Assembly (NCBI RefSeq): GCF_000148725.1
Contig: NZ_GL476303.1
Coordinates: 4,386 to 50,061 of the forward strand
Length of the DNA: 45,676 nucleotides
Direction: 5' to 3'
Origin: Roseibium sp. TrichSKD4
GTDB taxonomy: Bacteria > Pseudomonadota > Alphaproteobacteria > Rhizobiales > Stappiaceae
The position numbers and the translations under genes were made by a program. Of the stretch, positions 22,232-44,157 are shown piece after piece. The notes beneath the pieces were generated by a model, which saw only the letters and a list, made by a program, of their open reading frames with translations, was not told the origin of the DNA and did no database searches. Numbering within the stretch: position 1 is the first letter of the stretch; each line of letters opens with the position of its first letter.

Positions 22232-22382
22232 AAGCTAAGTTCTTTACTGTGAGAAGTGAATGTTTAATACCGGTATCGTTTCAAGAATGTTAGGTGGGCT
22301 GACGGGGCGTGTCGACAGTGACCCAGCCCCCTGAATTCCAGCCATCTTGGTGTTAGTGATTCATCTGAGGAAAGGATGGACC

Positions 22383-22646
22383 ATGAAACGCAGATTCAGC
22401 GACGAACAGATCATCGGGATGATCAAGGAGTACGAGGCCGGGGTAAAGGCTTCCGACCTTTGCCGGAAATATGGCATCAGCGACGCAACGTTCTACAAGT
22501 ACAAAGCCAAATTTGGCGGCATGAACGTGTCCGACGCGAAGAAGCTGCGGTCTCTGGAAGACGAGAATGCCCGGCTGAAGCGGATGTTGGCGGAGGCGAT
22601 GCTCGACAATGCCGCACTCAAAGATCTAGCGACAAAAAACTACTGA
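22383..22646 (+). CDS. IS3-family OrfA (copy 2)
   Basis: Identical in sequence to the OrfA of copy 1 (87 residues; HTH plus leucine-zipper-like helix). The A-AAA-AAC slippery heptamer sits just before its stop at 22634-22640, so OrfAB fusion by -1 frameshifting is expected if orfB were intact. Confidence 0.9.
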   Translation: MKRRFSDEQIIGMIKEYEAGVKASDLCRKYGISDATFYKYKAKFGGMNVSDAKKLRSLEDENARLKRMLAEAMLDNAALKDLATKNY

Positions 22647-24645: not shown

Positions 24646-25211
24646 GCCGGATCCTTCAAATCTTTCTTTGCCTTGTAGACAGTGCCGCGCGAAATGCCCA
24701 ACTCACGGGCGATCTCGGTCGGTGACAAGCCTGCCGACAGCTTTTCGCGTATTTCCGCCATGCTGATTCTGGGTGGCCGCCCCCGGTACACACCACGCTG
24801 TTTCGCAGCTGCAATTCCTTCGGCCTGGCGTTCGCGGCGCAAGTTGGTTTCGAATTCCGCGAACACGCCCAACATGTCGAAGAAAGCTTTGCCAGCAGCT
24901 GTTGACGTGTCCACCGGTTGCTCGGTCGCAGCCAGATGGGCCCCTTTTTCCTTCAAACGAGCAACGATGGTCTGCAAGTCACTCAAAGACCGGGCCAACC
25001 GATCGATGCGCGTCACCACAAGGGTTTCGCCGGGGTGGATGAAGTCAAGAATGGTTTTCAGCTCCGGCCGGCCATCAAGATTGGCACCGCTCTTTTGTTC
25101 CGCCCTCACCATGCCGCATCCGGCGGCCTTCAGCGCTGTCATCTGCGCATCAAGGTTCTGGTCAGTCGTCGATGTGCGCGCATATCCGATTTTGGATTGA
25201 GAAGTGTTCAT
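24642..25211 (-). CDS. tnpR: TnpR serine resolvase
   Basis: 189 residues with the small serine recombinase layout. The catalytic domain begins KIGYARTSTTDQNLDAQ, in which the Ser of TSTTDQ is the nucleophile; VVTRIDRLARSLSDL holds the conserved Arg residues; EFETNLRRERQAEG leads into the E helix. The C-terminal helix-turn-helix is LSPTEIARELGISRGTVYKAKKD. It resolves the cointegrates made by TnpA at the res site just upstream. The ATG at 25211 lies inside one of the ATGAACAC repeats, so resolvase binding would also repress its own gene. Confidence 0.94.
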   Translation of the reverse strand: MNTSQSKIGYARTSTTDQNLDAQMTALKAAGCGMVRAEQKSGANLDGRPELKTILDFIHPGETLVVTRIDRLARSLSDLQTIVARLKEKGAHLAATEQPVDTSTAAGKAFFDMLGVFAEFETNLRRERQAEGIAAAKQRGVYRGRPPRISMAEIREKLSAGLSPTEIARELGISRGTVYKAKKDLKDPA

Positions 25212-25295
25212 TTTGAGTGTGCCCGAATCTATTTGTGTTTATTAACACGAAACAGACTCATAATGAACACCTTTCACGTCAGGTTGAGTGTTCAT
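25204..25295 (-). promoter_or_regulatory. Probable res site and tnpR promoter region
   Basis: GTGTTCAT occurs at 25204-25211 and 25288-25295, and its inverse ATGAACAC at 25263-25270. A related palindrome GTGTT-TATT-AACAC lies at 25235-25248. Repeated inverted 8-bp half-sites directly upstream of tnpR match the multi-subsite organisation of Tn3-family res sites. Crossover subsite cannot be fixed by eye. Confidence 0.75.
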
Positions 25296-25329
25296 GAGGC
25301 TTGGCTCTGTGGGTATACCCATAATGACG

Positions 25330-26196
25330 TCAAGAGACCTCAACTGAAGATGTGATTTCATCCAGCCATTCAACGGCACCGGGAATTTGTCTCCACGCTG
25401 TGCCATTGGCATCAACATAGCTCGATGCCTGGTCCTTGCCACCCAAGGTCACATAGTCGCCGACGGGAACAGTTGGCACGCGACCGGAGAGCATACCTGG
25501 AACATGGCGGTTGGTTTCAAAGGCATGCCCGGCGATTTCCTTCGCATTTTCCGCCTCTTCAAAATAGGCGATCAATGCCCGCGTATACTGGATTTCCGGC
25601 GAATACTCGTCGGCGCACTGTTCCATGAGCGATTTCAACATGTCCATCTTGCCCATTTCGAGGAGATTCGCCGCCAGGATGTAGCGAATACCTTGGTTAT
25701 CGCCGGGGTTCAGAATAAGCATTTCCCTATAGTTCTGGATCGCTGCCTCTTTCTCTCCGGCCTCCCAGAGAACTTCTCCAAGTTCTCCGCGGGCTCGCAT
25801 GTATGGCCGAGTTTCCAGGACACCCCAGAAGTGTCCCTCGTTTTCCTTTAGTCCGCCTTCTCCCAATGCGAGTTCTCCTGCGGCTACAGCACGTTCAATC
25901 ATCTGCCGCCGTTCGCTGCTGGACAAAGAAGGCCGTTCTGCAAGGGTGAGCCACGCATCGGCGCAAAACACCGATAGTTTCAGTGCCTGCCGGGCCAGAG
26001 CAAATCGGCTGCGGCCGTCTGACGTTTCCCAGGAATCATAGACAAGCTCCTGTGCCTGCCAAAGCGTCTCATCGTTGACCGCGCTCTTGTATTCGGCGGA
26101 AGACGGCCGGAGAGATCTCGGATCCGGAAACACTGACAGATCCGACGCCGTTCGAACGGTTGAGCGTTGTTTGCGAGGCTTCTTTGACGTTGGCAT
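25330..26196 (-). CDS. TPR-containing (ST7-like) accessory protein of the transposon
   Basis: 288 residues. Helical repeats from about residue 60 (YDSWETSDGRSRFALARQAL; WEAGEKEAAIQNYREMLILN; GDNQGIRYILAANLLEMGKM) match tetratricopeptide motifs, and the NPGDNQGIRY phrase is typical of ST7-like TPR proteins. The basic N-terminus (MPTSKKPRKQR) could bind nucleic acid. The gene starts 12 nt after the tnpA stop on the same strand, so it is probably co-transcribed with tnpA and sits between tnpA and res. TPR domains mediate protein contacts; a role in controlling transposition or in host interaction is conjecture. Confidence 0.83.
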   Translation of the reverse strand: MPTSKKPRKQRSTVRTASDLSVFPDPRSLRPSSAEYKSAVNDETLWQAQELVYDSWETSDGRSRFALARQALKLSVFCADAWLTLAERPSLSSSERRQMIERAVAAGELALGEGGLKENEGHFWGVLETRPYMRARGELGEVLWEAGEKEAAIQNYREMLILNPGDNQGIRYILAANLLEMGKMDMLKSLMEQCADEYSPEIQYTRALIAYFEEAENAKEIAGHAFETNRHVPGMLSGRVPTVPVGDYVTLGGKDQASSYVDANGTAWRQIPGAVEWLDEITSSVEVS

Positions 26197-26208
26197 TTCC
26201 GTCTCCGA

Positions 26209-29100
26209 TTAAGCAGCCATGAGTTCAAAGTCGATCCGTTTATCCAGATCGACGTCGAAGCGGCCATAAGGGTTGATGTGGGAATGGATGGTTGGCGACA
26301 GGCGACAATCGCCGTCTGCAGAAAGCCGAGCAAACCATGCCGGCTCCGTCAGAACGCTCTGCAACATACGGGTGTTCACATATACCATGGAGGCTTGGAG
26401 AAGATGCAGTGCATGGGCGGAAAGCTCCTGATCGGCAATCCGGTTGCTGGCAATCTCACCGCCCTTTCCGAAGAACACAAAGCTGTTGGTGCTGTTCCAG
26501 TTCTCAACCACGTTCAGACCGTCATGGATTTCCCTGCGAAAATCTTCTGAACGAAGATAGCGGCATAGGAAGATCGTCTTGATCGCTCGGCCGAGTTCCG
26601 CCAAAGCCTTATAGGTCGGGTGCATCACGTCCGAGCGGGCGAAGCGGCGCAAGATCGCTTCAGGATCGGCCGTGCCGGTCTGCATGGCCGCCGCATACTT
26701 GACCATTTCATCGTACTGACGCTCGATCTCATCCCAATCGATCGGCTTCGATAAGATCGGTAGGAGATTGGGCAGTTTGCCGCGCATGTCCGCAAAAGGT
26801 ATTGCCAGTTTCTGGCGCGCGATCGCTTTCAGCCGCGGTGCCAGGTCAAAACCGAGCAAATAACAGAAGGCAAAGCCGACAACACTCTGGCCGTGGCTGT
26901 CCACATAATGACGCTGGATTTCCATGTCGGTGCAATGCCGCAAGACACCTTCGATCATTGAGGCAACCTCGGACGAAGAACAACGCTTCAGGCGGGAATA
27001 GACACAGGTCGATTCCCGTTCAACATGCCAGTAGATCATCACTCCACGACCGCCATACCGGGCATGCCACTCGCTCATCAGGTTCCGGTCCCAAGCTCCG
27101 AACTTGGTGGAATCCGATGCGCAGGCTGTTCCGGCTTCGCCCCAGATCAGAGGATTGCGCACCGCGAGCGTAGCGTTGGCAACCCTGGCACAAGCTGCCC
27201 GCAGGGAGGGCCCATCGAGATAGCGGCGGCTGACATGCTTCAGTTCGTCGTAGGATATGTTCGGAACACCGGCTGCAATGCGTTTCAAGCCCGCATTCGT
27301 GCCGAGACCATAGAGACACAGCAACAAGCGTCGATCACGAACAGCTTGCGGCAGAGCTTCCCGGCTGGCCGAGGTCTCGAACGCATCGAGAAAGCCGGTC
27401 TCAAGGGCCGTTTCCTTCAAAGTGTCGAGAAGGCCCGTCATCGGCCAGCGGCGGTTGATCTCCGATTTCAGGGCCAGCAGCCCCTTCGGTTCCGGCAGTG
27501 GCTCGAAGGGTGTGATGCAGATCCTGTTCTTCCCATGCCAGCGCAGCCGGACCTTGTCATTGGACGGCAGGGTCGCGTTTAACTGGAGAAGTTCCTGTTC
27601 CAGCTGATCCCGCACCGATCGGACAAAGCTATGGGCATCGCGGGTCAGGTTCAGGCCGGAATAATAGGCATCGCGCTGCTCCGCAAAATCTCCGGGTAGA
27701 TCCTCATCCGGGTTGCGGTATCGGTCGGACCCGGCAATCCAGATTTCCTTGGCGCGAATGCGCTCCCGCAGTTGGGTCAGGACACAAAGCTCATAAGAGA
27801 TGACATTCAAGCGGCCACGCTCGTCGATCACGGTTTTCCGCCATTTGGCCGGGATCGATCCTTCCGGCGCGAACGCGACCGGGGCAAACCGGCGACCGTC
27901 TTCATTCAGACGACTGACCAGAGACAGTGCCTCAAGGATCGGCCGCCACGTCTCGTTGTTGGACCGGAACTCCAGTACGGACAAGAGTGGCGGCAACATG
28001 CGCCGGTAGTGATTGGCATAGGAGCCCCGCATCACCGTCTGGATACGAGTGTCCAACGTTCCCTTCGCCCCGTGCTCCTCAATGATCGCCTTTAGACGTG
28101 CAGCTCCGGCGACCGGAAAGATGACATCGGCCACCTTGCCTTCCGGTGTCTCCATCGCTGCTGTTGCGATGTCCACGAGAAGGCGTTCCTTGCCATGCAC
28201 CTTCTCAATATCGGCTGCAATCCGGTTGACCACCTTTCGACGCGACTTTGTGCCTATCCTGTGAACCAGCTCAATCAGCAAATCCACCAGACCGTCCAGC
28301 AACTGAGCTCGGCGCGACATTACATATATGGCCAGCAGGCCAAGCCGTTTCGTCTCGCCGTGCCGGCGCATTTCCGCGGCGGTCTCGCCTTCGACGCGGC
28401 GCACCAGTATTTTGATCCAGGACGGATGGATCGAGGCGACGACTTCAAATGGCAAAACCAGAGACTGCACGAATTCCAGCCGGCTGGCTGCATCGAGTAC
28501 ATTGTCCAGCGTGGCGGCACCGACATCCTCCTTCAACCGCAGAAATCCCTGCTGCCCGCGCGGGTCGGACAGGCTCGCCTCCAGTGCAAGGCGTGTTTCC
28601 ACTGGCATACGACCACAAATCTCATCGAGCAATCGTTCGGAAAATGCGTGCAGCGCGGAGCGCGTCAAACGCTCCATGATTGCTCGGGAGGGGATGAAAA
28701 CTTTGTTTTGCAGAGCCCATGCGTAGCCCTTTTCTGCAAGCTCGGCCGAATTGGCGCCAACTGATCTGGCAATCTCCGACAGATACTCGCAAAGCGCAGC
28801 CTTCTCCCCCTCCCCAGCGCGCCGAAAGCCAAGGAAACGAAGAATTTGCAAACGGTGGCGGCGGGCTATGTCGCCGGCCAGCTTGTAAGAACCTGCAAGC
28901 GCCGCCGGTTCTCCGGTCTGATCGCAAACATAGTCGAGGGCATCCTGCGCAATCTCAGCCAATGTGGACGGGAAGTAGCCATTGCAGCGGAAAAACAACA
29001 GCTGAGCCGCAACGCCAATCCGCGTCTGATGCCGGTAGCCATGAACAAACTCAAGGTCCGAAAAGGACAGGCTCCACACTGAAATATCTTCGAAGTCCAA
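26209..29100 (-). CDS. tnpA: TnpA, Tn3-family transposase
   Basis: About 960 residues. The N-terminal DUF4158-like part ([19 protein letters not shown]) is followed by a long helical middle and a C-terminal RNase H-like DDE domain. The acidic residues are in [21 protein letters not shown] and LNVVENWNS, the usual Tn3 spacing. The frame is open upstream to 29364, but that crosses the right inverted repeat, so the real start must be inside. No ATG lies at a suitable place; TTG 29100 gives the family's usual length, and a slightly earlier non-ATG start is possible. The protein binds the 47-bp ends and carries out replicative transposition. Confidence 0.93.
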
Positions 29101-29172
29101 TGCACAAATCCTCCAGAGAAAGCGCAATTTCTGGCACTTCCATAAAGAGGTCAACAATTCAAGCGACCACCC

Positions 29173-29219
29173 TTTGTTCCGCAAAACGCCCAAATGTGCA
29201 CGCTCGGGCCTCTTGGGCC
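29173..29219 (-). repeat. Tn3-family terminal inverted repeat, right
   Basis: The inverse of the left repeat at 24149-24195, with 45 of 47 positions identical. It ends exactly before the second ACCTA (29220-29224). Confidence 0.95.
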
Positions 29220-29224
29220 ACCTA

Positions 29225-29537
29225 TGTGGAAACCCAGCTCGCACCGACGCTGCAAAATGGCGACGTGGTAATCCTGGATAACCTGTCCAGCCACAAGAGC
29301 CCGCGCGCTGCCCAAATTCTGCGCGACCGCGGGGCATGGTTCCTGTTCCTGCCGCCATGTTCACCCGACCTGAACCCTATCGAGATGGCCTTTTCGAAGC
29401 TCAATTCGCTGATCTGTAAAGCGGCTGGCAGAACATACGAAGACCTATGGAAAGCCGCCAGTTATGCCTGCAATCTCTTCACCGTTGAAGAATGCTTCAA
29501 CTTCTTCAAGGTCGCAGAATCTGCGGGTAATCGATAA
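29225..29537 (+). pseudogene. IS630-family transposase, 3' part
   Basis: Continues the interrupted IS630 gene from [10 protein letters not shown] (its first codon overlaps the target duplication at 29220-29224) with the second catalytic Asp in [12 protein letters not shown] and the third acidic residue in [18 protein letters not shown]. The frame runs to NFFKVAESAGNR and stops at 29537; the last few residues probably belong to the adjoining IS110 sequence, since IS630 homology fades near FFKVAE. No clear IS630 terminal repeat is seen at this junction. Confidence 0.86.
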
Positions 29538-30728: not shown

Positions 30729-32621
30729 TCATTTAAAGGGTGCTGCTTTCAGATCCATGCTATCTTTATGCAGGCTCGGTACAATTTCCCCCAACTTCAA
30801 AATGCAAAGGTCATTTGAGCCTAATTTCACGGACTTACCCAAATCTTCGATTTTTTGGCTCATTTTATCTAGAGGTAACAGATTGGCTGTCGCGACGATG
30901 ACGCCATCAGCGCCGGAGGGCTGGTTGTCTTCATCAGCTTCGAATAGTTCCTCGAACAACTTTTCTCCAGGGCGAAGTCCTGTGAATTTGATCTTGATGT
31001 CCTTCTCGGGTCTGAGACCCGCGAGCGAAATGAGAATTTTGGCGAGGTCGACGATCTTGACCGGATCGCCCATATCCAGAACATAAATCCGCCCGCGCTG
31101 GTTGGAATTGTCGACGCTGAAGGCTGCTGCCTGTAAGACCAGCTCAGAGGCTTCCGGGATGGTCATGAAGTAGCGGCGCATGTCCTTGTGGGTAATGGTC
31201 ACCGGACCACCGGCTTCGATCTGCTTACGGAACAGCGGGATCACGGAGCCATTTGACCCCAACACATTGCCGAAGCGCACTGTAATGAAACGTGTATGGG
31301 TGCCGGAGACATCAAGGGCTTGACAATAGGCCTCTGCAGCCCGCTTGGTTGCTCCCATGATGCTGGTCGGTTTGACCGCCTTGTCGGTTGAAATCAGGAC
31401 AAACCCATCGACGCTGTGGGCCGCCGCCGCATCTGCCACGTTGCGCGTGCCGAGCACATTGGTCTGAATGGCTTCCAGTGGGTTTTCTTCCATGAGCGGC
31501 ACATGCTTGAGCGCTGCTGCGTGGAAGATGATTGAGGGCTTTTCCGTGCTCACAATCTCCATGATCCGGTCGCGATCTCGTACATCCGCGAGGACGGGTC
31601 GTTTGGAGAGTGTAGGTGCGGTCAGTCCGAGTTCCTGATCTATATTGTAGAGGGCAAATTCCGAATTCTCGATAAGAACCAGCCGGGAGGGCGCATATTT
31701 GAGCACTTGGCGGACAACCTCAGAGCCGATGCTGCCCCCAGCCCCGGTGATAATGATGACGCGTCCGGAAATGAGGTTGTTCATCTTGCTGCGGTCAAGT
31801 TTAACCGGTGGACGGCCTAAAAGGTCGTCAATGGTGAGCTCTGAAAAATCCGGTTCAGATAGGTCAAGTGGACGCGGAGTCGCTCGCTTAATTGGTATTC
31901 CAAGATCTGCGGCTGCGGAGGTCAGGATTTTGGTGAAATCTGAGGGTGGGCGACTGCTGACCGACAGGATAGCGTCAGGCGCAATGTCTGTCCGTTGAAG
32001 ACGCTCGACAAGGTTTTTCAGATCGGCAACGTCCCCCAAGATGGGAATGCCGCGAATGCTGTGCCCACCTCTCTTTTTGTCCGTGCAGATCAATCCATGG
32101 ACCTTGTAGCGACCGGTAGTTTCCAGCTGATAGGTGCGAATGACGTGCTCTGCGTCGCCCACCCGCCCGGCGAGCAGGACATGTTGTATGTCTGTATCGG
32201 GCTTCTGAATATTTGCTACACGTTTGAGGCTGCCGTCACGTAGGGCACGGTATGCCAATCTAGGTGCGCCGATCATCACGATCATCATGAACCAGGTGAT
32301 GAACGGTACAGACCTTGGCAGGCCGTCCAACCGCGAAATCAGAAACAAGCAAATGACAAACACAGAAATGGTTGCTGTGGCGGCAATTACAATCGCGCGT
32401 AGATCTGCAAGAGAAGCAAACCGCCAGAGGCCGCGGCCAAGTCCGGAGAGCTTGAATACTATCAGCGAGATAATGACAAAGAGACCTACCCACCCCATGT
32501 ATTTTTCGGTCGGTGGGAGATTGTTAAAACCATAGCGAGCAGCGATGGCCAGCGCGAGAGCAAGCCCCGACATTAATGCATCATGCAGAACAGCAATGAG
32601 ACGTTTGTTCAAAAGGGTCAT
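30729..32621 (-). CDS. Membrane-bound UDP-HexNAc 4,6-dehydratase (CapD/PglF/WbpM/WreV type)
   Basis: About 630 residues. Four hydrophobic spans fill the first about 140 residues (ALALAIAARYGF; WVGLFVIISLIVF; ISVFVICLFLI; FITWFMMIVMIGA). A CoA-binding-like Rossmann region follows, then an extended SDR domain with TGAGGSIGSE and the active-site string STDKAVKPTSIMGATKR, where Met replaces the usual Tyr (MxxxK), as in WbpM and PglF. These make UDP-2-acetamido-2,6-dideoxy-hexos-4-ulose from UDP-GlcNAc, the precursor of QuiNAc, FucNAc or bacillosamine. The start is set at ATG 32621; a TTG at 32705 would add 28 residues before the first span. It stands alone between an IS3 fragment and the divergent nucleotidyltransferase gene. 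Confidence 0.92.
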   Translation of the reverse strand: MTLLNKRLIAVLHDALMSGLALALAIAARYGFNNLPPTEKYMGWVGLFVIISLIVFKLSGLGRGLWRFASLADLRAIVIAATATISVFVICLFLISRLDGLPRSVPFITWFMMIVMIGAPRLAYRALRDGSLKRVANIQKPDTDIQHVLLAGRVGDAEHVIRTYQLETTGRYKVHGLICTDKKRGGHSIRGIPILGDVADLKNLVERLQRTDIAPDAILSVSSRPPSDFTKILTSAAADLGIPIKRATPRPLDLSEPDFSELTIDDLLGRPPVKLDRSKMNNLISGRVIIITGAGGSIGSEVVRQVLKYAPSRLVLIENSEFALYNIDQELGLTAPTLSKRPVLADVRDRDRIMEIVSTEKPSIIFHAAALKHVPLMEENPLEAIQTNVLGTRNVADAAAAHSVDGFVLISTDKAVKPTSIMGATKRAAEAYCQALDVSGTHTRFITVRFGNVLGSNGSVIPLFRKQIEAGGPVTITHKDMRRYFMTIPEASELVLQAAAFSVDNSNQRGRIYVLDMGDPVKIVDLAKILISLAGLRPEKDIKIKFTGLRPGEKLFEELFEADEDNQPSGADGVIVATANLLPLDKMSQKIEDLGKSVKLGSNDLCILKLGEIVPSLHKDSMDLKAAPFK

Positions 32622-32746
32622 AGAGTTTAGCTGAAAAACTGGAAACTTCTTACGTTTTGCGCCTAGCACCATAGCTGACGAAATGCAATTTGTCTTCGTT
32701 AGCAACGTGAAGTGTGTACACGTGTGGTTTTGCGTTATATGCTGAC

Positions 32747-32818
32747 TACCCCACGAAACGCTTTTTGTGGGGTAGTTTGTATGTTAATTTTACCCCACGA
32801 TAAAATCCATGTGGGGTA
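32747..32818 (+). promoter_or_regulatory. Two matched 28-bp palindromes upstream of the nucleotidyltransferase gene
   Basis: TACCCCAC - 12 nt - GTGGGGTA occurs twice, at 32747-32774 and 32791-32818. Arms and spacer length are identical while spacer sequences differ. Centres are 44 bp apart, about four helical turns, so proteins bound to both would lie on the same DNA face. The second palindrome overlaps the ribosome-binding region (GGGGTAAGG) and ends 4 nt before the ATG at 32823. They may be operators for autoregulation, or hairpins hiding the start in mRNA. Confidence 0.7.
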
Positions 32819-32822
32819 AGGC

Positions 32823-33845
32823 ATGCCCATCGAGTATCACAGCGCGATTGGAACAGCGGCCTGGACGGACCTGCGGCGTTTGCTAATTGATGGTTCGGTT
32901 TCTGGCTTGCGCGGAACACCAAGGCAGAAGACGGTTGGGGCCAAGACCTACTGGTATGACCACTTTCGCGTCGGAAATCGGACGATTGATCGCTATATTG
33001 GTGAGGATGCGCCAGAGCTTCGGGGCCGTCTGGAGCGTCAGGCGGAGATTGCCAAGGCGGCGAAGCAGGCCGAGCGCGAACGGGCGCGGCTGATGCGGGT
33101 GCTCCGGGCCGAGGGCTATCTCTTTGCCGATGTCGGCTCAGGTCAGGTGGTTGCAGCCATGGCCAAAGCCGGTGTGTTCCGCCTTGGTGGCACGATTGTC
33201 GGTACGCATGCTTTCCGCTGTTATGAAGGCGAACTTGGCGTCCGGATCAGCTTTGATCAATCGGCCGCGACGGATGACATCGATATTGCCAGTTTCGAGC
33301 GCCTGTCCCTTGCGCTCGCCGATACGGTCGAGCCGCCACTTGCGGAAACATTTTCAGAGCTTCAATTCGACCCCCTCCCCGCACTGGAAAGCGGCAAAAC
33401 CTGGCGATGGCGGCACACGAACCGGCAAACCCTCGTGGAGTTCCTGACCCCCTCCTTTGAGGAGGACGAGGCAATCCGCGATCTGCCGTCCCTCGGGGTC
33501 AACGCACAAAGTCTGCATTTTCTCAATTATCTCATCGCGGAGCCGATCCGCGTGCCGTTTCTTTATCGCTCCGGTGTGTTGGTTCAAATTCCCCGGCCAG
33601 AACGCTATGCCATACACAAGCTCATTATTGCTGACCGCCGTCAGGGCGGGCCGGATGCGATCAAGGCGCACAAAGACCGCGCGCAGGCGGCCTTTCTGAT
33701 TAAGGCGTTGACCGAAACCCGCCCCGAGGACCTTGCCGAGGCCTATCAGGTCGCACTGGAAGCGGGACCTGCCTGGCGCCAGCGGATAGCCGCGAGTCTG
33801 ATACACCTGCCGGAAACGGCCAATCTGCTAGAAGAAATTCTTTGA
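32823..33845 (+). CDS. GSU2403-family nucleotidyltransferase-fold protein
   Basis: 340 residues. An N-terminal helical region (RGRLERQAEIAKAAKQAERE) precedes a nucleotidyltransferase-like core: GGTIVGTHAFRCYEGELGV, then TDDIDIASFERLS, whose acidic triplet is the expected metal site. RPERYAIHKLIIADRR is a conserved later motif. This fits the GSU2403 family (NTP_transf_8-like), whose biochemical activity is not settled; such folds include AbiEii/MenT toxins and tRNA modifiers. ATG 32823 follows GGGGTAAGG. It is a single gene directly before the repABC operon, preceded by the two palindromes, so a role in plasmid biology is reasonable but unproven. Confidence 0.8.
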   Translation: MPIEYHSAIGTAAWTDLRRLLIDGSVSGLRGTPRQKTVGAKTYWYDHFRVGNRTIDRYIGEDAPELRGRLERQAEIAKAAKQAERERARLMRVLRAEGYLFADVGSGQVVAAMAKAGVFRLGGTIVGTHAFRCYEGELGVRISFDQSAATDDIDIASFERLSLALADTVEPPLAETFSELQFDPLPALESGKTWRWRHTNRQTLVEFLTPSFEEDEAIRDLPSLGVNAQSLHFLNYLIAEPIRVPFLYRSGVLVQIPRPERYAIHKLIIADRRQGGPDAIKAHKDRAQAAFLIKALTETRPEDLAEAYQVALEAGPAWRQRIAASLIHLPETANLLEEIL

Positions 33846-34153
33846 AATCCTTTCGCGTCGTTTTCACGCAATGGGGTTGATCAGAGACGTTAACCTTTCA
33901 TTTACCTTAAATTCCTTGACGCGACTCACATTTTCATTCGTAATTTACGCTAAATAGGCGCGTTGGGGCTGGTTTGCCGTAACTCGACTTTCCCACCGTT
34001 GTTTTCGGTCCGGCCCGTTGATCAGAATTGCTGCAGATTGCGAATCTGGTCATTGTGCGCGCCAATTGTATTTTTGATGGGCAAAAGATGGGGCTTCCCA
34101 TTCCCGCGTCCGTCGCAAGGCAGAAGCCGTAATGAACAGATTTGGCTCAAGGA
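33846..34153. promoter_or_regulatory. repABC leader region
   Basis: About 300 bp with no gene. TTGACG at 33916-33921 could be a -35 element, but the best -10 candidates downstream are poor. A 15-bp interrupted palindrome CAGATT-GCG-AATCTG lies at 34034-34048 and could be an operator for RepA, which represses its own operon in this plasmid family. No parS-type palindrome is found here. Confidence 0.5.
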
Positions 34154-35371
34154 ATGACACAAAGAATGGCCGCTGACGAACAGATTGCCCGGGACGCAGC
34201 ACAGCTGTCTGAACAGCTGAGCGAACTGCGTACCCGCCTGTTCCCCCCGGCAAATATGAAGACCATGCGGTCTTTTACCTCTGGCGAAGCGGCAAAGCTG
34301 ATTGGTGTGTCCGATGGGTATTTGCGCCAGCTGGCCCTGTCTGGTGACGGCCCCTCCCCTGCCACGGATGAGCGCGGGCGGCGCAGTTACACCCTGTCCG
34401 ATATCAATGCCCTTCGGGTTCATTTGGCCTCTCAACACGAACCGGGCAGCGCCAAGGCGCGGGCCTATGTTCGCCACAGGGATCCGGAGCGCAGCGAACA
34501 TTGCCAGATCTTGGCTGTGACGAACTTCAAGGGCGGATCGGGCAAGACGACCACCTCAACTCATCTGGCACAGTATCTGGCGATCCGTGGCTACCGCGTG
34601 CTGGCCGTTGATCTCGATCCGCAGGCCTCCATGTCGTCGCTTTTTGGCTATCAGCCCGAGCTGGACCTGACCGGCAATGACACGATTTATGGCGCCATTC
34701 GCTATGATGATGAACGTGTCACCTTGTCGGACGTTATCCGCAAAACCTATGTTGATGGCCTTGATCTGGTGCCCGGAAATCTGGAGCTCCAGGAGTTTGA
34801 ACACACCACACCGCAATATCTGGCGAGCCGACCAGCTGGATCGGACCCGAGCGAATTGTTTTTCGCCCGGGTTCAGGCGGCGCTGCGATCTGTTGAAGAC
34901 AATTATGATGTTGTCGTTCTCGATTGTCCGCCGCAGCTTGGCTATCTGACGCTCGGGGCGCTGTGCGCGGCAACGTCCGTGATCGTGACGGTCCACCCGC
35001 AGATGCTGGATGTGGCCTCCATGAGCCAATTCCTGTTCATGACCTCTGATTTGTTGTCAGTTGTGCGCGAAGCGGGCGGTACGCTGAACTTCGACTTTCT
35101 GCGCTATCTCGTCACCCGGTTTGAACCACAAGACGGACCCCAAACCCAGATTGCAGGCTTTTTGCGCGCCCAATTTGGCGAGCGGGTTTTGACAGCGCCG
35201 ATGGTGAAATCGACCGCAATTTCTGATGCTGGCCTCACCAAACAGACGCTCTATGAAGTGGGCCGGGAAAACTTCACCCGGGCGACCTATGACCGGGCGA
35301 TGGAAGCGCTGACAACTGTCAACGCGGAAATCGAGACCCTGATGCTCGAAGCTTGGGGGCGTAAAAAATGA
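34154..35371 (+). CDS. repA: RepA, ParA-type partition ATPase of repABC
   Basis: About 405 residues. The N-terminal part has a MerR-like helix-turn-helix (TSGEAAKLIGVSDGYLRQLA), then the deviant Walker A FKGGSGKTTTSTHLAQYL, VDLDPQASMSSLFG (Walker A') and VVLDCPPQLGYLT (Walker B). This is the RepA layout: the protein segregates plasmid copies with RepB and parS and represses the operon. I chose ATG 34154; TTG 34142 and ATG 34166 are also in frame, the latter better spaced from AAGGA at 34149-34153. It is followed by repB after 97 bp. Confidence 0.95.
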   Translation: MTQRMAADEQIARDAAQLSEQLSELRTRLFPPANMKTMRSFTSGEAAKLIGVSDGYLRQLALSGDGPSPATDERGRRSYTLSDINALRVHLASQHEPGSAKARAYVRHRDPERSEHCQILAVTNFKGGSGKTTTSTHLAQYLAIRGYRVLAVDLDPQASMSSLFGYQPELDLTGNDTIYGAIRYDDERVTLSDVIRKTYVDGLDLVPGNLELQEFEHTTPQYLASRPAGSDPSELFFARVQAALRSVEDNYDVVVLDCPPQLGYLTLGALCAATSVIVTVHPQMLDVASMSQFLFMTSDLLSVVREAGGTLNFDFLRYLVTRFEPQDGPQTQIAGFLRAQFGERVLTAPMVKSTAISDAGLTKQTLYEVGRENFTRATYDRAMEALTTVNAEIETLMLEAWGRKK

Positions 35372-35468
35372 CGCTGTTAATCTTATCAGGAAAGTTATGC
35401 ACACCCCCCTCCCTTGCCCGTATACTGGAGCGGTTTGACCGGACCGGACATGTTTGGGGGATGTTGGC

Positions 35469-36554
35469 ATGACAAAACGCAAGGATCGTTTGAAGGCGTT
35501 GTTTACGGGAACGGAGGCACCGGACCTGCCGAAGGATTTGGAAACGAAATCCGCCAAGGCACCGGGCAAGCCACAAGCGGCGGCCTATGAGAAAAGGTCC
35601 AGCCCTAAAACCGGCCCCTCCCCGGCTCCAGCTGATGCCGGCCGATCCCGCTCCGCCTCCGGTGCGGTGAAAGCCATGGGGTTGTCACTCGGGCAAATGG
35701 CGGAGGAGCTGCAAGAGCAAACCGGCGAGCGGATTGTCGAACTGGAGCCGAACCACATCGAGCCCTCCCCGGTTGCCGACCGCATCACGCTGGAAGCAAA
35801 TCTGGATGACGGGTTTGCGGAGCTGGTGGAAAGCCTGAAGACGCGCGGCCAGCAAGTGCCGGTGATGGTGCGCCGCCATGCGGACCCAACCAAGGCGGCC
35901 GAGGGATGGTATCAGGCCGCCTATGGTCACCGGCGGATCCGAGCGGCCCGCGAACTCGGGCTTAAGGTTCGCGCCATTGTGCGGGATTTGTCCGACGACG
36001 CGTTGATCCTGGCGCAGGGCAAAGAAAACTCTGAACGGCGGGATCTTTCCTTCATAGAGCGGGCTTTCTTCGCTCGATCCCTGATTGAGCATGGCATTTC
36101 CCGCGCGATGATCCAGGAAGCGCTGTCCATCCATAAAACTGAGATGACCCGTTTGTTGCAGGTGGCTGACAAGGTCCCCTACCCTATTGCACGGGCTATT
36201 GGTCCGGCGCCCAAGGCCGGACGGCCGCGTTGGCTGGAGCTGGCCGAGCTGATTGACGGGGAAGCTGCAGAAGTTATCGCTCAGGATGAAATCATGTCGG
36301 AGTCGTTTCTGGCCTCAGGTTCCGACACACGGTTCAAGCGTTTGCATGCGCGGTTGCTAAACCGGCGCAGCAAAAAGCCGTCTGGCGATGTGGTGAACAG
36401 TCGGGCGGGCGTTCCAATGGCTGAGGTCAAGGGAACAGCTATCCGCCTGGCAAAATCCGTACCGAAAGACTTTACCCAGTTTGTCGCCAACCGGTTGCCG
36501 GACCTGCTGGAAGCCTATGAGGCTGAGCGAAAGGCGCCAAAGAAGTCGAGTTGA
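35469..36554 (+). CDS. repB: RepB, ParB-type centromere-binding protein of repABC
   Basis: 361 residues from ATG 35469, chosen because GGGGGA lies 7 nt upstream. The N-terminal tail is the RepA-interacting region (TKRKDRLKALFTG). The ParB/Srx-like domain includes YGHRRIRAARELGLKVRAIV and AQGKENSERRDLSFIERAFFA, and the helix-turn-helix SRAMIQEALSIHKTEMTRLL binds parS. The stop codon TGA falls inside a perfect GTTGACAGCTGTCAAC palindrome. Together with RepA it moves and holds plasmid copies at cell division. Confidence 0.95.
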   Translation: MTKRKDRLKALFTGTEAPDLPKDLETKSAKAPGKPQAAAYEKRSSPKTGPSPAPADAGRSRSASGAVKAMGLSLGQMAEELQEQTGERIVELEPNHIEPSPVADRITLEANLDDGFAELVESLKTRGQQVPVMVRRHADPTKAAEGWYQAAYGHRRIRAARELGLKVRAIVRDLSDDALILAQGKENSERRDLSFIERAFFARSLIEHGISRAMIQEALSIHKTEMTRLLQVADKVPYPIARAIGPAPKAGRPRWLELAELIDGEAAEVIAQDEIMSESFLASGSDTRFKRLHARLLNRRSKKPSGDVVNSRAGVPMAEVKGTAIRLAKSVPKDFTQFVANRLPDLLEAYEAERKAPKKSS

Positions 36555-36565
36555 CAGCTGTCAAC
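36550..36565 (+). promoter_or_regulatory. parS-like palindrome 1
   Basis: GTTGACAGCTGTCAAC, a perfect 16-bp palindrome of the kind bound by RepB in repABC plasmids. It overlaps the repB stop codon and precedes the repB-repC gap. An exact second copy occurs at 39963-39978 and a one-mismatch copy at 38910-38925. Confidence 0.88.
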
Positions 36566-36623
36566 TTTGAACGGTGCATCCGCACCAGAAATTGAAAACC
36601 AAAGGAGAAAGGAGACAGGCAAC

Positions 36624-36707
36624 AAAAAGGCCCCCAAAGCAGATCGCCCCGGAAGCCCTCTTTGTATGTAGCAATCTCAGAGAATCACTTCCGCGAAAAA
36701 ATGTCAA
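36624..36707 (-). ncRNA. Putative antisense ctRNA (incA-like) of repABC
   Basis: The repB-repC gap of repABC plasmids encodes an antisense RNA that limits repC expression. On the minus strand here a TTGACA -35 lies at 36707-36702, with a weak -10 expected near 36680-36690. Further on, a stem (GGCUUCC pairing with GGGGGCC, plus-strand positions 36651-36657 and 36629-36635) is followed by a U run (complement of 36624-36628), a rho-independent terminator. The transcript would be about 45-60 nt. The -10 is poorly defined, so the 5' end is approximate. Confidence 0.7.
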
Positions 36708-36764
36708 GACTGCCCGGTCTCAATTGAGGTCAGGGGAATCCTTTCTATTGCCGTTTGAACGGTC

Positions 36765-38042
36765 ATGGAGACAACAAATTCCCTTGGAACGACGCCTTTT
36801 GGCGGCGGACGGTTTTCTATTGCCTTGTTCAAGGCGCAGAAATCCTTGAACGACCGGCGCGCAGCGTTGAAAGACGGCAGCAACATCACCGGAAAAGTGG
36901 ATAAGTGGCAATTTCTGCGCGCCCTGACCGAAGCCAAGGCCGCCTTTGCCTTGACCGATCGTGCCATTGCCGTTCTTGAGGCCTTGATGAGCTTTCACCA
37001 AGAAAAGGAATTGGACGGCACAGAAGACATAATCGTCTTTCCGTCGAACCGGGAGCTTAGCTTGAGGGCCCGCGGTATGTCCGAACCAACGCTGCGCCGA
37101 CACGTGGCGACCCTCATCAAGGCCGGATTTCTACTGCGTAAGGACAGCCCGAACGGCAAGCGCTTTGCGCGCAAGGGGCAGGGCGGTCTGGTGGAAGAGG
37201 CTTTTGGCTTCAATCTTGCCCCATCGGCCCTGATGGCCCCGGACGTCTTTGAAGAGGCGGAAAAAGCGCGTCATCTGGCGCTGGAGCTGCGCAAGGCGCG
37301 CGGCGAGGTTACCCTGCATTTGCGCGACATTTCCAAAATGATCGAGGCTGCGTACGAGGACGGCATCGCGCAAGACGACTCTGATCAATGGTTTGGCTTT
37401 ACAAACCGCCTGAAGGATCTTTCTGGACGCGTGTCCCGTCACGCCTCGCTTCAGGAGACCCGTGACAGGTGCCAACGGCTGGTGAGCCTGCGTGTTGAAG
37501 TCGAAAGCGCGTTCCTGGCGGGGATGAGGGAAGAGGATCTGGAGACGGGAGAAGAGATTTCTGATCTGCAGCAAAGCCCTGAAATTAGTTCGAAAAATAA
37601 AAAAAATAAAGGCAATGCCGCTCAAAATGAGCGCCACATTCAGAATTCAAAAACAGATACCTCATTTGAACCTAACAAAGAAAAAAATGTAGCGGAGGGC
37701 AGCAGAGATTTTGACCGAACCGAAACGGAATCCATCCGACTGAGCGAATTGAAGGAAGCCTGTCGGGAGTTTCCAGAATATGCGCTGGACGGTCTGAACT
37801 CTTGGGCGGATGCACGGAAGGCAGCGAATCTCGCCCGACCGATGCTCGGCATTTCAAAAAACGCCTGGCATGAAGCGGTGGAAGCCATGGGGCAGGGCGG
37901 CGCAATTGTAGTTCTGGCTTATCTGATCGAGCGGGCAGGGGAGATCAAAACTCCCGGCGGCTATCTGCGCAGCTTGACGGACCGCGCAAGCACCGGAAAA
38001 CTCCGCCTGCGGCCAATGGTGGAGTCTTTGCTCAATCGGTAA
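36765..38042 (+). CDS. repC: RepC, replication initiator of repABC
   Basis: 425 residues. N-terminal DNA-binding part (LTDRAIAVLEALMSFHQ, SNRELSLRARGMSEPTLRRH, LIKAGFLLRKDSPNGKRF) and a C-terminal domain ending GGYLRSLTDRASTGKLRLRP, both usual for RepC. The linker (about residues 270-320) is polar and low complexity, encoded by the AT-rich stretch that probably holds oriV. No good ribosome-binding site precedes ATG 36765, in line with control of translation by the antisense RNA. It sets replication and incompatibility together with the ctRNA. Confidence 0.95.
   Translation: METTNSLGTTPFGGGRFSIALFKAQKSLNDRRAALKDGSNITGKVDKWQFLRALTEAKAAFALTDRAIAVLEALMSFHQEKELDGTEDIIVFPSNRELSLRARGMSEPTLRRHVATLIKAGFLLRKDSPNGKRFARKGQGGLVEEAFGFNLAPSALMAPDVFEEAEKARHLALELRKARGEVTLHLRDISKMIEAAYEDGIAQDDSDQWFGFTNRLKDLSGRVSRHASLQETRDRCQRLVSLRVEVESAFLAGMREEDLETGEEISDLQQSPEISSKNKKNKGNAAQNERHIQNSKTDTSFEPNKEKNVAEGSRDFDRTETESIRLSELKEACREFPEYALDGLNSWADARKAANLARPMLGISKNAWHEAVEAMGQGGAIVVLAYLIERAGEIKTPGGYLRSLTDRASTGKLRLRPMVESLLNR
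37575..37690 (+). other. Probable oriV inside repC
   Basis: An AT-rich stretch (for example a nearly unbroken A/T segment at 37590-37610) lies within repC, with a short inverted repeat GCTCA-AAA-TGAGC at 37620-37632. Known repABC plasmids place their origin in an AT-rich part of repC, so this is the likely site. No iterons are seen. Confidence 0.65.
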
Positions 38043-39034: not shown

Positions 39035-39098
39035 TGTACGCAGAGCGTACACCTATCGAAATGGATGCATATTTGTGATATTGTGCACAAATACACAT
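39035..39098 (+). promoter_or_regulatory. Probable operator/promoter of the mntA-hepT operon
   Basis: Two symmetric elements lie upstream of mntA. TGTACGC-AGA-GCGTACA at 39035-39051 is a perfect 7+7 bp inverted repeat. At 39072-39098, half-sites TTGTG (39073), TTGTG (39081), CACAA (39086) and ACACA (39093) form a symmetric cluster around the perfect palindrome TTGTGCACAA. Closely spaced 5-bp half-sites are what ribbon-helix-helix repressors bind, and the downstream antitoxin has such a domain. It ends 17 bp before the ATG. Confidence 0.65.
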
Positions 39099-39115
39099 AT
39101 CGGCGGAGCTTTTCC

Positions 39116-39592
39116 ATGCCCAGTCTTCAACCATCTAAACCCGAACAGCAAACGGCCTATTTATCGGCACGGGTGCCGGTTGCGCTGAAAAATCGCTTTA
39201 AGGCGCTGGCGGCAGAACGTGGCGCAAAGGTGCAGGATCTTCTCCAAAAGCTTGTGAATGACTATGTGGCCGGCGAAGGCGCTCAAACACTTTCGGCGAC
39301 TGACATTATTGCGCGGCTGCGAAGTCAGAAAGAAGAGCTGCAAAAGCAGGGCATTGCCCATCTCTATCTTTTTGGCTCGGTTGCCAGGGGATCGGCAACG
39401 GCAAGCAGCGATATTGATCTTTCCTATGTGGCAACGGAAGGAACACAACTGAGCTTGTTTGATATTGGGCGTTTCAAGCAAGTCCTGGAGGAGGTTTTGG
39501 AGTGTTCTGGAAAAGTGGACCTTTCACCGCGTTCACAACTGGCAGACCACGTGTGGGAGACGGCGAGTTCAGATGAAATTCAGGTGTTTTAG
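39116..39592 (+). CDS. mntA: MntA-like antitoxin: ribbon-helix-helix domain fused to minimal nucleotidyltransferase
   Basis: 158 residues. Residues about 12-52 (TAYLSARVPVALKNRFKALA, then AKVQDLLQKLVNDYV) form a ribbon-helix-helix DNA-binding domain. From about residue 68 follows a minimal nucleotidyltransferase with the GSx10DxD motif (GSVARGSATASSDIDLS). In MNT-HepT systems this enzyme AMPylates the HEPN toxin and so disarms it. Start ATG 39116 is chosen because GGAG lies 7-8 nt upstream; a start at 39065 would run through the operator. The gene is followed by hepT after 3 nt. The extra RHH domain probably allows autorepression. Confidence 0.87.
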   Translation: MPSLQPSKPEQQTAYLSARVPVALKNRFKALAAERGAKVQDLLQKLVNDYVAGEGAQTLSATDIIARLRSQKEELQKQGIAHLYLFGSVARGSATASSDIDLSYVATEGTQLSLFDIGRFKQVLEEVLECSGKVDLSPRSQLADHVWETASSDEIQVF

Positions 39593-39595
39593 GGC

Positions 39596-39967
39596 ATGCG
39601 CACGGATGGGCATCGCTTGCAGGACATCAAGCTCGCAATAGACGATCTTCGTGTATTTGTTGCGGAACTGGATGAGCCGACCTTTTTGTCAACGCCAAAG
39701 TCGGACCGAAAGACGTTTCGGGCAGTCTGCTCATGTCTTCAGGATATAGGCGAAGCGGTGAAAGCGGTTTCGCAAGAGGTTAGGTATCGCCACCCGCACA
39801 TACCATGGCGCTTGATTGCGGGAATGCGCGATCACATTGTTCACGAATATTTTCGCACAGATCCGGGCATCATTTGGGCAACGCTTAAGAGCGGCGAACT
39901 GACTGCACTTTATCGGGTGGTTGTTTTGGAGCTGGAGCGGGAAGGGGATCGGCGCGACAAGAGTTGA
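39596..39967 (+). CDS. hepT: HepT-like HEPN toxin
   Basis: 123 residues, all helical. The HEPN motif RxxxxH is present as RDHIVHEYF near residue 83, with the usual following Tyr that the MNT partner modifies. HepT proteins are RNases activated when the antitoxin is lost. ATG 39596 comes 3 nt after the mntA stop. The stop codon lies within a perfect parS-like palindrome at 39963-39978. As an addiction module near repABC it likely stabilises the replicon. Confidence 0.9.
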   Translation: MRTDGHRLQDIKLAIDDLRVFVAELDEPTFLSTPKSDRKTFRAVCSCLQDIGEAVKAVSQEVRYRHPHIPWRLIAGMRDHIVHEYFRTDPGIIWATLKSGELTALYRVVVLELEREGDRRDKS

Positions 39968-41845: not shown

Positions 41846-42736
41846 ATGTTACTCAACAATCTTCGACTTTTCTTGGTCATTGCCGAAAAGGGCAGTCTCG
41901 TCGCGGCTGCTCGTGAAACAGGGCTGTCGACGACGACTGTGTCTGAGCGTCTGGCGTCCCTAGAAAGCCATTACGGCGTTGTCCTGTTCAATCGAACCAC
42001 TCGATCTATCAGTTTGACTGAGGAAGGGCGTGTGCTGCTGGAGGGCGCGAAGACGGTGCTGAGCGAGGTCTCGGATCTTGACGCTCGGATACGGCATGGG
42101 GCTGAAACACTCTCAGGCCCAATTCGCATGTCAGCGCCTATTGATCTGGGGCGCGGCCTTATCTCTGAAGTCATATCATCCTTCACTTTGAAGAACCCGG
42201 CTGTTTCAATCGAACTCTCGCTATCGGACGGGTATGTCGATCTTGTGGGGCAGGGGTTCGACCTCGCGGTTCGTTTCGGTAATGTCACAGACACGTCGTT
42301 GCGGGTACGCAGCCTTGGACATTTCCAGCGCCGTGTGTGTGCTGCAACAGCTTATCTGGAACAGCATGGCGTGCCTCAAACACCCGAGGACCTTGCAAAC
42401 CACAACTGTCTGGTCATGCGCTTTGGCGGAACTTTGGACAACATTTGGGAGTTTGGCTCGGGTCCAAAACGGGTCCGGGTCACTGTGCGTGGGAGCCATG
42501 TGGTTAATGACGGCTAGCTTATTCGCAAATGGGCTTTGTCTGGACGCGGAATTGTCCTGAAATCGGAGCTGGATATCTCCGAGGACATACAGTCTGGGAC
42601 TTTGGTTTCGGTACTTGAACAGCATTTGCCTCCGCCGACCCCATTGCAAATGATGTTTCCGCCGGGCCGTGCCCAACCGCGCCGCGTTGCAGCTTTGGCT
42701 GAACAGATCGTGCGCGCCATGCCCAAGCCGGACTAA
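41846..42736 (+). pseudogene. LysR-family regulator interrupted by an in-frame amber codon
   Basis: The N-terminal winged helix (LRLFLVIAEKGSLVAAARET, TTTVSERLASLESHYGVVLF) and the effector domain (GPIRMSAPIDLGRG, RVCAATAYLEQHGVP) are those of a LysR regulator. The frame stops with TAG at 42515-42517 after 223 residues, but the same frame continues without change as LIRKWALSGRGIVLKSELDI and ends LAEQIVRAMPKPD at 42736, total about 296 residues. A single G-to-T change (GAG to TAG) would explain it. The cut protein lacks the last quarter of its effector domain. Amber suppression or sequencing error are alternatives. Confidence 0.9.
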
Positions 42737-42866: not shown

Positions 42867-44069
42867 CTATTTCGCCACGCGGTCCCCGCGGCCTTTGCCT
42901 GTGAACGTGGCAATAATAATTTTCAGCTCCAGAAGCAGGCCGCGGCGGGCGATGTATTCCGCGTCTTTTTTGGAAAGGCGCACGGGATCGCTCATGTCTA
43001 TGTCCTTGATTTGTGCCAGGCCGGTGATGCCGGGAAGGACGGTCAGCACACCGCGCTTCGTGCGCTCGTGGACCAGCTCCGTTTGAACCGGCAGGCAGGG
43101 GCGGGGGCCAACAAGCGAAAGTTCACCTTTGAGGATGTTCCAAACCTGCGGCAGTTCGTCGATCTTGGTCTTGCGAATAAAGTTTCCAATTGGCGTGACA
43201 GAGCTTTGTGAGACCTCATGGGTGCCAGCCTGTTTCGTGCCCTTGGCCATGGAGCGGAACTTGTAGCAGACAAAAACCTTGCCTCCCTTGCCAACACGGT
43301 CCTGTGCAAAGATGCCCGGCCCCGGCGAGCCGGTTTTCACCAGCACCCAGATGATCGCCAGCAGCCACCAGAACAAGAGAATGACTGATAATGCGAAGCC
43401 ATAATCGATCAAGCCGCGTCCCAGCCGGTAGACTAGGTTTTCTTCCTTCGGATCAGCCGGAAACATGGGCTCGTCGGAAGCCTTGAAAAAATCGGTGCTG
43501 ACCAGTGTGCCGGCGATCCGTTTGACTGAAACCGTTGGAGCTAAGGCGGACAAAATCGCAAATGCAGGGCGGCGAAGACCCTTGGGAAGCTTCTCCAATA
43601 CCGCCAGCTTGCCAGCAAAGCGCTCGCCATGAACAGCGGGTAGAAATAGATTGACGATGTTGATGCCGTCGATCGCGCTCAGAACACGGATTGCCTCGCG
43701 CTTGCTGCGGGCATAAGGCGTGTCAGGACCATCATCCAGAGCATGAAAACTGGAAACATTGATAAAGGTCGGCACCTTGGCTGCGCGCGCCGCTTCCGCG
43801 ATGGTCCGCGTCAGCTCCACATTCGCAGCCCGGAATTCATCCTCGCTCGCTTCAGCCGTGTTGTTCAACACCGCCAGATGCATAACTGCATCCACACCTT
43901 CAAGCAGCTCCCGCAGCTCCTCATATGACCCGCATCGGGCATTCTCGGCGAGGCTCTTGAGGCGCGCCGGATCCCGGCCAACCAAAACAAGGTCAACCCC
44001 GGCAGCCGCCAACATCGGCACCAACTGAGCCCCCAAAAACCCCGAGGCACCTGTCATGAGAAGTTTCAA
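42867..44069 (-). CDS. Fusion of an SDR reductase/epimerase and a polyprenyl-phosphate sugar-1-phosphate transferase (WreQ-WreU-like)
   Basis: 400 residues with two parts. Residues 1 to about 215 are an extended SDR: MKLLMTGASGFLGAQLVPML (TGxxGxxG), INVSSFHA (Ser) and YARSK (YxxxK). From about 222 follows a small monotopic phosphoglycosyl transferase: membrane helix GFALSVILLFWWLLAIIWVL, SPGPGIFAQDRVG, YKFRSM, the catalytic Asp-Glu in TKIDELPQ, and LSLVGPRP. Such transferases start O-antigen or glycan synthesis on undecaprenyl phosphate. In Rhizobium the separate proteins WreQ and WreU reduce the 4-keto sugar and transfer QuiNAc-1-P; this protein seems to join both. The reductase part is shorter than usual. 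ATG 44069, single gene. Confidence 0.88.
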   Translation of the reverse strand: MKLLMTGASGFLGAQLVPMLAAAGVDLVLVGRDPARLKSLAENARCGSYEELRELLEGVDAVMHLAVLNNTAEASEDEFRAANVELTRTIAEAARAAKVPTFINVSSFHALDDGPDTPYARSKREAIRVLSAIDGINIVNLFLPAVHGERFAGKLAVLEKLPKGLRRPAFAILSALAPTVSVKRIAGTLVSTDFFKASDEPMFPADPKEENLVYRLGRGLIDYGFALSVILLFWWLLAIIWVLVKTGSPGPGIFAQDRVGKGGKVFVCYKFRSMAKGTKQAGTHEVSQSSVTPIGNFIRKTKIDELPQVWNILKGELSLVGPRPCLPVQTELVHERTKRGVLTVLPGITGLAQIKDIDMSDPVRLSKKDAEYIARRGLLLELKIIIATFTGKGRGDRVAK

Positions 44070-44157
44070 GCGAAGATCCTTGCGAAAAGCAGATTTGCAA
44101 CGCTGCTTGATTAGCCGGTCGGGCAGGGGAGGTCAAAAGGAAGTGTGTTAGCACTCC

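Follow-up and report, generated by a model that had tools for sequence, protein, structure and literature searches.

A short-chain dehydrogenase/reductase fused to a monotopic phosphoglycosyl transferase on a Roseibium plasmid: a candidate initiator that may finish its first sugar on the lipid carrier

The O-antigen N-acetylquinovosamine (QuiNAc) of Rhizobium etli CE3/CFN42 is served by WreV, WreQ and WreU, a FlaA1-type dehydratase, a 4-keto reductase and a monotopic phosphoglycosyl transferase (PGT), and the same three steps can be inferred for the locus described here. On R. etli p42b, a PGT, a dehydratase and an O-antigen ligase stand side by side; we take this PGT to be WreU and this dehydratase to be WreV. 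The reductase WreQ is a separate protein, unlike the gene product that concerns us. That product is encoded at 42867-44069 on the minus strand of a 45,676-nucleotide stretch of Roseibium sp. TrichSKD4 (contig NZ_GL476303.1, positions 4,386 to 50,061; hereafter the window), where a single uninterrupted frame of 400 residues joins a short-chain dehydrogenase/reductase (SDR) to a PGT.

PGT fusions with sugar-modifying and other domains are already a described class: PMC10942596 defines a Bi-PGT by a further functional domain on the PGT-core chain, and sugar-modifying domains are known partners of small PGTs (PMC10942596 and PMC12802240). Like a Bi-PGT, the Roseibium fusion joins a domain, here one of putative function, to the PGT core. 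We propose that it is a bifunctional initiator in which transfer comes first and reduction second, a reading to which we give a probability a little under one half (about 0.47). The PGT half would place a keto-sugar-1-phosphate on undecaprenyl phosphate, after which the SDR half, tethered to the membrane above the PGT, would reduce C4 of the lipid-linked keto sugar with NAD(P)H. The product would be undecaprenyl diphosphate (Und-PP)-linked QuiNAc or its 4-epimer, Und-PP-linked N-acetylfucosamine (FucNAc), two sugars that sequence cannot tell apart.

The fusion gene, its domains and its relatives

The features of the gene, all on the minus strand, are as follows.

42867..44069, minus: SDR-PGT fusion gene, 400 residues with a TTG start; 28 further fused homologues.
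44077..44081, minus: Shine-Dalgarno-like AAGGA, 7 bases before the TTG, read from the sequence.
43446..44069, minus: SDR domain, residues 1-208, a Rossmann fold that lacks the C-terminal part seen in stand-alone relatives (PF01370, predicted model and alignment).
44031..44054, minus: cofactor motif TGASGFLG, residues 6-13; GxxGxx[GA] in 29/29 fused sequences, the final G being A in locus L103.
43701..43751, minus: catalytic stretch S107 ... Y119xxxK123; S/T107, Y119 and K123 each in 28/28.
42870..43436, minus: monotopic PGT domain, residues 212-400 (PF02397; Foldseek matches PglC 8e37/8g1n and WbaP 8t53).
43317..43328, minus: SPGP, residues 248-251, presumably the end of the re-entrant helix; G250 in 28/28, P251 in 27/28.
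43146..43160, minus: DELPQ with the catalytic Asp-Glu dyad, residues 304-308; 28/28.

Along the frame the motifs run MKLLMTGASGFLG...YARSK...SPGPGIFAQDRVG...KIDELPQ. Pfam places Epimerase PF01370 at residues 1-163 (64.6 bits against a cut-off of 20.9) and Bac_transf PF02397 at residues 220-389 (163.3 bits against 27), so that the SDR, at about residues 1-208, passes directly into the monotopic PGT, at about 212-400, just as the first-pass annotation had described it. The TTG start is plausible in view of the upstream AAGGA, and the Roseibium sediminis copy also begins with TTG, preceded there by AGGATCTTCGC. The same fusion occurs in 28 other sequences and is therefore neither chance nor sequencing error.

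The PGT half resembles PglC 8e37 (Foldseek E 1.2e-10, TM-score 0.77 by target length), and D304 and E305 are present in all 28 fused sequences counted, a list that was partly filtered for DELPQ: 19 sequences were gathered freely and the last nine were chosen for this motif, which left out L100 with its DEFPQ. Residue counts therefore refer to 28 sequences, and pattern counts and the tree to 29. In the SDR half, the structure prediction that the first-pass annotation had proposed gave a complete cofactor fold, with blocks of pLDDT (per-residue model confidence) of at least 90 up to residue 190. YxxxK occurs in 29/29 fused sequences, and the S/T, Tyr and Lys of the catalytic stretch are invariant down to 38% pairwise identity, as are N69 and P162 (28/28 each), which together with H109 (26/28) are conserved residues of the fusion's own. 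The ratio of nonsynonymous to synonymous substitution rates (dN/dS) is 0.12-0.27 for the SDR half in five pairs and 0.05-0.08 for the PGT half. By these sequence comparisons purifying selection acts on the SDR half, though less tightly than on the PGT half, and the reductase half looks alive; a general decay of the SDR was considered and rejected on the same dN/dS values and the invariant catalytic residues.

The genome survey that the first-pass annotation had suggested brought the number of SDR-PGT fusions to at least 29, the window's included. A scan of genome contigs, in which 80 of 209 loci were kept, contained 17 full-length fusions (loci L001-L017), all alphaproteobacterial by record title and spread over Roseibium/Labrenzia, Sulfitobacter, Tabrizicola, Hoeflea, Novosphingobium, Parasphingorhabdus, Planktotalea, Ahrensia and others; one further fusion lies on a Sulfitobacter pontiacus plasmid. 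The family of R. sediminis, home of four of the 17, yielded two more among 87 genomes, and that of Sulfitobacter CW3 at least eight more among 295 genomes with the top 6 candidates per genome scored. When 385 genomes were drawn evenly from the class and the top 4 candidates in each were scored, R. sediminis alone carried the fusion; the counts for the class and for the CW3 family are lower bounds. The fusion is thus distributed over several families yet rare. Its closest relative among the 80 loci is that of R. sediminis (89% protein identity), whose DNA is 81-87% identical to the window over shared stretches, and a near-identity search of plasmids returned no record in which one place covered 80% of the region.

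What the fused SDR keeps and what it has lost

The fused SDR comprises about 208 residues against 287-335 in the 13 related stand-alone SDRs compared, in keeping with the earlier remark that this part is short. The stand-alone proteins are WbpV-like by our judgement, and the comparison was drawn among them and the fusions, with the WreQ and WbpV sequences themselves outside it. By plain pattern, a PLP followed by an arginine is found in 12/13 stand-alone SDRs and in 0/29 fused ones. When 19 fused SDRs were aligned with nine stand-alone ones, the cofactor and catalytic positions were kept, and the conserved PLP and Arg-Ser positions were not. The fused proteins were cut at residue 232 or 214 for these alignments, so that gaps beyond are there by construction; the start of the PGT after the SDR is taken from Pfam and the predicted model. 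With the PGT match beginning at residue 220, the fused SDRs lack the C-terminal substrate-binding part of their stand-alone relatives, and the fused chain enters the PGT where the latter extend for some 80 to 100 residues more.

In a profile alignment, the arginine in the TRDF segment of the UDP-GlcNAc (uridine diphosphate N-acetylglucosamine) epimerase 6wjb falls on the PLP...R arginine. The loss of PLP...R and of the C-terminal part argues against a UDP-sugar, and for a lipid-linked keto sugar, as the substrate of the SDR half. A short loop between the catalytic Ser and Tyr was also considered as a trait specific to the fusion and was dropped, the stand-alone SDRs of L025/L026 being shortened as well.

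Where the missing part would lie, the predicted structures place the PGT. The matched range runs to residue 370-381 in 38 of 50 structural alignments of the window's model, and to 378-381 in 47 of 50 for a second model (L015, 47% identical to the window's; pLDDT 87.7, predicted TM-score 0.80), these ranges being given by first and last residues only. The overlay of a PGT helix (residues 362-375) on the C-terminal portion of extended SDRs, among which UDP-sugar enzymes are numerous, is suggestive only. Occupying the place of a stand-alone reductase's substrate lid, the PGT domain may provide a wall of the sugar pocket. More tentatively than for the order of steps itself, we therefore picture a self-contained "transfer, then finish" initiator, in which an SDR stripped of its UDP-handling parts possibly uses the PGT as pocket lid and reduces the sugar on its carrier.

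Dehydratase linkage, plasmid setting and unfused relatives

Two further features of the window bear on the sugar that the fusion would handle and on the replicon that carries it.

30729..32621 (open frame to 32705), minus: FlaA1/CapD/WreV-type UDP-GlcNAc 4,6-dehydratase, presumed supplier of the 4-keto sugar (PF02719, 383 bits).
34142..38042, plus: repABC plasmid replication module, between the dehydratase and the fusion (TIGR03453, 628 bits; NF040974, 361 bits).

The 4,6-dehydratase that the first-pass annotation had located on the same replicon is indeed there: its frame is 30729-32705 (minus strand), and the start at 32621 matches the position of the ATG in the homologue from R. sediminis, which is 85% identical and lies on a contig also bearing the fusion. 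In the window the dehydratase and the fusion are 10.2 kb apart with repABC between them; the distance is 14 kb in R. sediminis and 30 kb in the Ahrensia genome. All 17 fusion genomes encode a full-length FlaA1/CapD-type dehydratase (at least 631 residues, PF02719 E <1e-100), with a match on the fusion's contig in 14 and on another contig in three, and in 12/17 it lies less than 10 kb from the fusion (0.2-9.8 kb). By comparison, none of the 28 other PGT matches in these genomes (E up to 1e-25) is within 10 kb of the dehydratase (Fisher p 2e-7).

In R. sediminis a dehydratase, an O-antigen ligase, an NTP_transf_8 gene, repABC and the fusion share one 22.7-kb contig. Loci L002-L004 (Alphaproteobacterium AO1-B, Labrenzia) have the order dehydratase, a frame of about 405 residues, fusion and repABC, the frame being a Wzy_C-type O-antigen ligase where checked (L002). 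The Wzy_C ligase gene of R. sediminis (L108, 4281-5546) stands between the dehydratase and the NTP_transf_8 gene, and the corresponding place in the window, 32705-32823, holds only about 118 bases.

Unfused versions of the three genes are found elsewhere. Plasmids of Rhizobium sp. BG6 and Devosia neptuniae carry the dehydratase, the SDR (310 and 335 residues) and the PGT as separate neighbours, with the SDR and PGT genes overlapping by 4 bases, and in Rhizobium sp. T1473 the order is again dehydratase, SDR (331 residues), PGT, with a 6-base gap between the last two. Marinobacter has overlapping SDR-PGT pairs, and in Ancylobacter and Brevundimonas the PGT precedes the SDR. A reversed pair of this kind, PGT then SDR with a 4-base overlap, is also seen at 1543-3065 (plus strand) of L107, its PGT match flagged with one stop. 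The pathway, reduction of a 4-keto-6-deoxy-N-acetylhexosamine (HexNAc) and its transfer to undecaprenyl phosphate, fits the locus because of the dehydratase linkage and these unfused dehydratase-SDR-PGT loci.

Among 53 PGT domains placed in a tree, all 29 fused sequences and five unfused ones (L018, L019, L020, L093 and L104) form a group of 34 (support 92/93), beside which stands a sister group of 15 unfused PGTs (94/90); an earlier tree of 67 sequences with 19 fusions agrees on the grouping. The p42b transferase of R. etli, which we take to be WreU, is not the closest relative, for it falls outside both groups (49 sequences in all). The same placement rules it out as parent of the fused PGT half. 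The label fused or unfused changes six times on the best tree, two of the changes being forced by well supported branches, which points to losses, splits or repeated fusion; a single fusion event without reversion is ruled out by the same counts. The unfused PGT of L104 (1483-2397, minus strand) has a 112-residue N-terminal stretch without SDR motifs that ends like the fusion's linker and, from its sequence, is possibly a decayed SDR.

With profile A2 (E <1e-30), a stand-alone reductase of the WbpV kind is present in 2/17 fusion genomes, and in 4/8 of the genomes that carry an unfused PGT and did not contribute to A2. The comparison is weak (p 0.06), and for that reason we call it only plausible, on gene content, that the fusion is the sole reductase. 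A2 matches at 1e-20 to 1e-28 were treated as background SDRs, a threshold that is a matter of judgement. The four of these eight genomes in which the free reductase is present (G730, G602, G487 and G409) have PGTs that all belong to the unfused sister group.

A frame beside the fusion (41846-42517, plus strand), which we take to encode a LysR-type regulator, has an in-frame stop after 223 residues; the codons past the stop are by eye still LysR-like, and the gene is apparently broken. At 39065-39967 (plus strand), adjacent frames resemble by eye a nucleotidyltransferase/HEPN-type toxin-antitoxin pair. A Tn3-family element with a transposase of 1051 residues (PF01526) and a resolvase-like frame (by eye) occupies 24642-29364, between the polysaccharide genes and the dehydratase. 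Two copies of the same insertion-sequence frame pair, at 12001-13172 and 22376-23549, with translations identical by eye over shared stretches, lie on either side of the WecB/UGD/asparagine-synthase genes within the polysaccharide cluster; the 12001 frame of the first copy ends early, with 200 residues against 265. An ATP-binding cassette (ABC) transporter pair with a Wzt_C domain lies at 9201-11388 (minus strand), and the plasmid thus carries genes for ABC-dependent polysaccharide export.

Order of the steps and comparison with known systems

The title of Li & Noel 2017 places transfer to the lipid before reduction in Rhizobium QuiNAc synthesis. According to PMC4514872, the lipopolysaccharide (LPS) of a wreQ mutant carries a 4-keto sugar, and the Rhizobium machinery therefore accepts the keto sugar. 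PMC3682973 describes an epimerase, Gnu, that acts on UndPP-GlcNAc and not on UDP-GlcNAc. The first-pass annotation had seen the fusion as a channel from reductase to transferase; of this, the pathway stands, with the dehydratase linkage and the unfused loci behind it, whereas the handover of UDP-QuiNAc is not supported, given the missing PLP...R and C-terminal part and the title of Li & Noel 2017.

Several observations weigh against transfer before reduction, or against a strict need for the SDR half. In the genomes G457 and G534 and those of L019/L020, the PGT belongs to the fused clade and bears no SDR domain, and no A2 reductase is found, so that the clade can do without a recognisable reductase; nothing argues more strongly than these four genomes that the SDR half is not strictly needed. 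One of the four PGTs is that of L104, with its 112-residue stretch lacking SDR motifs. At the position of the PLP...R arginine, the 28 fused sequences have K (15), A (7, the window's residue being A), R (4), F (1) and L (1), and since many thus retain a basic residue, a phosphate contact may survive. By analogy with GalE-type structures, this arginine and the preceding loop would hold the UDP. The domain placement comes from AlphaFold2 models, the Ser-Tyr spacing of 12 residues is half the usual, and PF02719 is unspecific, 14/14 control genomes scoring over the cut-off and weaker matches being common. R. etli WreQ, finally, is described as a maker of UDP-QuiNAc in PMC4514872, which gives its accession as YP_470339.

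The description of both WreQ and Bacillus Preq as makers of UDP-QuiNAc (PMC4514872) favours the conventional order, in which the SDR half would reduce the UDP-4-keto sugar and the PGT half would then transfer it. The intact cofactor and catalytic residues suit this order as well, as do the basic residue at the conserved-Arg position in most fused SDRs and the retention of the putative UDP site by the stand-alone relatives; yet PLP...R is found in none of the 29 fusions, the C-terminal part is missing, and the Rhizobium order is reported as the reverse in the title of Li & Noel 2017, so that we regard reduction before transfer as doubtful. It is also unlikely, in our estimate, that the SDR is a non-catalytic domain that senses cofactor or nucleotide and regulates or stabilises the PGT, in the manner of the nucleotide-binding domain of unknown function in WbaP-type large PGTs or of NDUFA9, a complex I subunit with an SDR fold. 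A Rossmann-like domain directly before the PGT of WbaP binds uridine nucleotides (PMC10942596), the structural matches include 8t53 and subunits of complex I, evolution is faster in the SDR half than in the PGT half, and the four SDR-less genomes of the fused clade would be readily accommodated. The invariance of S/T107, Y119 and K123 is nevertheless hard to explain without catalysis and speaks against the purely regulatory module that had been raised as an alternative at the outset; PF13727 is absent from the six families matching the fusion at E 1e-3, and the predicted model begins with a Rossmann strand at residue 2, with no helices ahead of the fold.

Because Gnu, a GalE-kind 4-epimerase, has UndPP-GlcNAc as its substrate (PMC3682973), and because the fused PGT itself places the first sugar, the SDR half might instead be a 4-epimerase of an Und-PP-linked HexNAc. 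We hold this to be improbable, for a linked 4,6-dehydratase suggests a keto substrate in need of reduction, and in three unfused relatives the SDR lies between the dehydratase and the PGT.

Should transfer indeed precede reduction, with the PGT as pocket lid, the fusion would be a membrane enzyme with two active sites, one enzyme being part of the other's substrate site. It could also illustrate the conversion of a nucleotide-sugar enzyme into one for lipid-linked sugars through loss of its nucleotide-binding part. The order of reduction and lipid loading in QuiNAc-type initiation decides which nucleotide sugar is actually used. As the two sites share a chain and the reductase shows no obvious UDP site, a single protein suffices to test that order. 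For annotators, an SDR-PGT fusion near a FlaA1-type dehydratase would predict a 6-deoxy-HexNAc as the first sugar.

Set beside known systems, some relatives of the locus share with R. etli p42b the company of a ligase: a Wzy_C O-antigen ligase lies beside the dehydratase on the fusion's replicon in R. sediminis (L108) and AO1-B (L002), and L003 and L004 have a frame of that size in the corresponding place. The BG6, T1473 and Devosia neptuniae loci have the gene order dehydratase, SDR, PGT, and their SDRs of 310-335 residues are unfused and keep PLP...R and the C-terminal part. WbaP-type large PGTs have a four-helix transmembrane bundle and PF13727, both missing in the fusion, which has instead an SDR with S/T, Tyr and Lys. 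Gnu, as described in PMC3682973, is a precedent for a GalE-kind 4-epimerase acting on a lipid-linked sugar after the PGT step; compared here by description only, it differs from the fusion in being an epimerase and unfused. In the titles and abstract beginnings of the open-access literature searched, we found neither a published SDR-PGT fusion nor a description of a PGT-fused SDR without its C-terminal part, although the survey that defined Bi-PGTs, O'Toole et al. 2021, may well include them. The novelty seems to lie in bringing together a shortened SDR, a linked dehydratase and a mechanism through which the order of steps can be tested.
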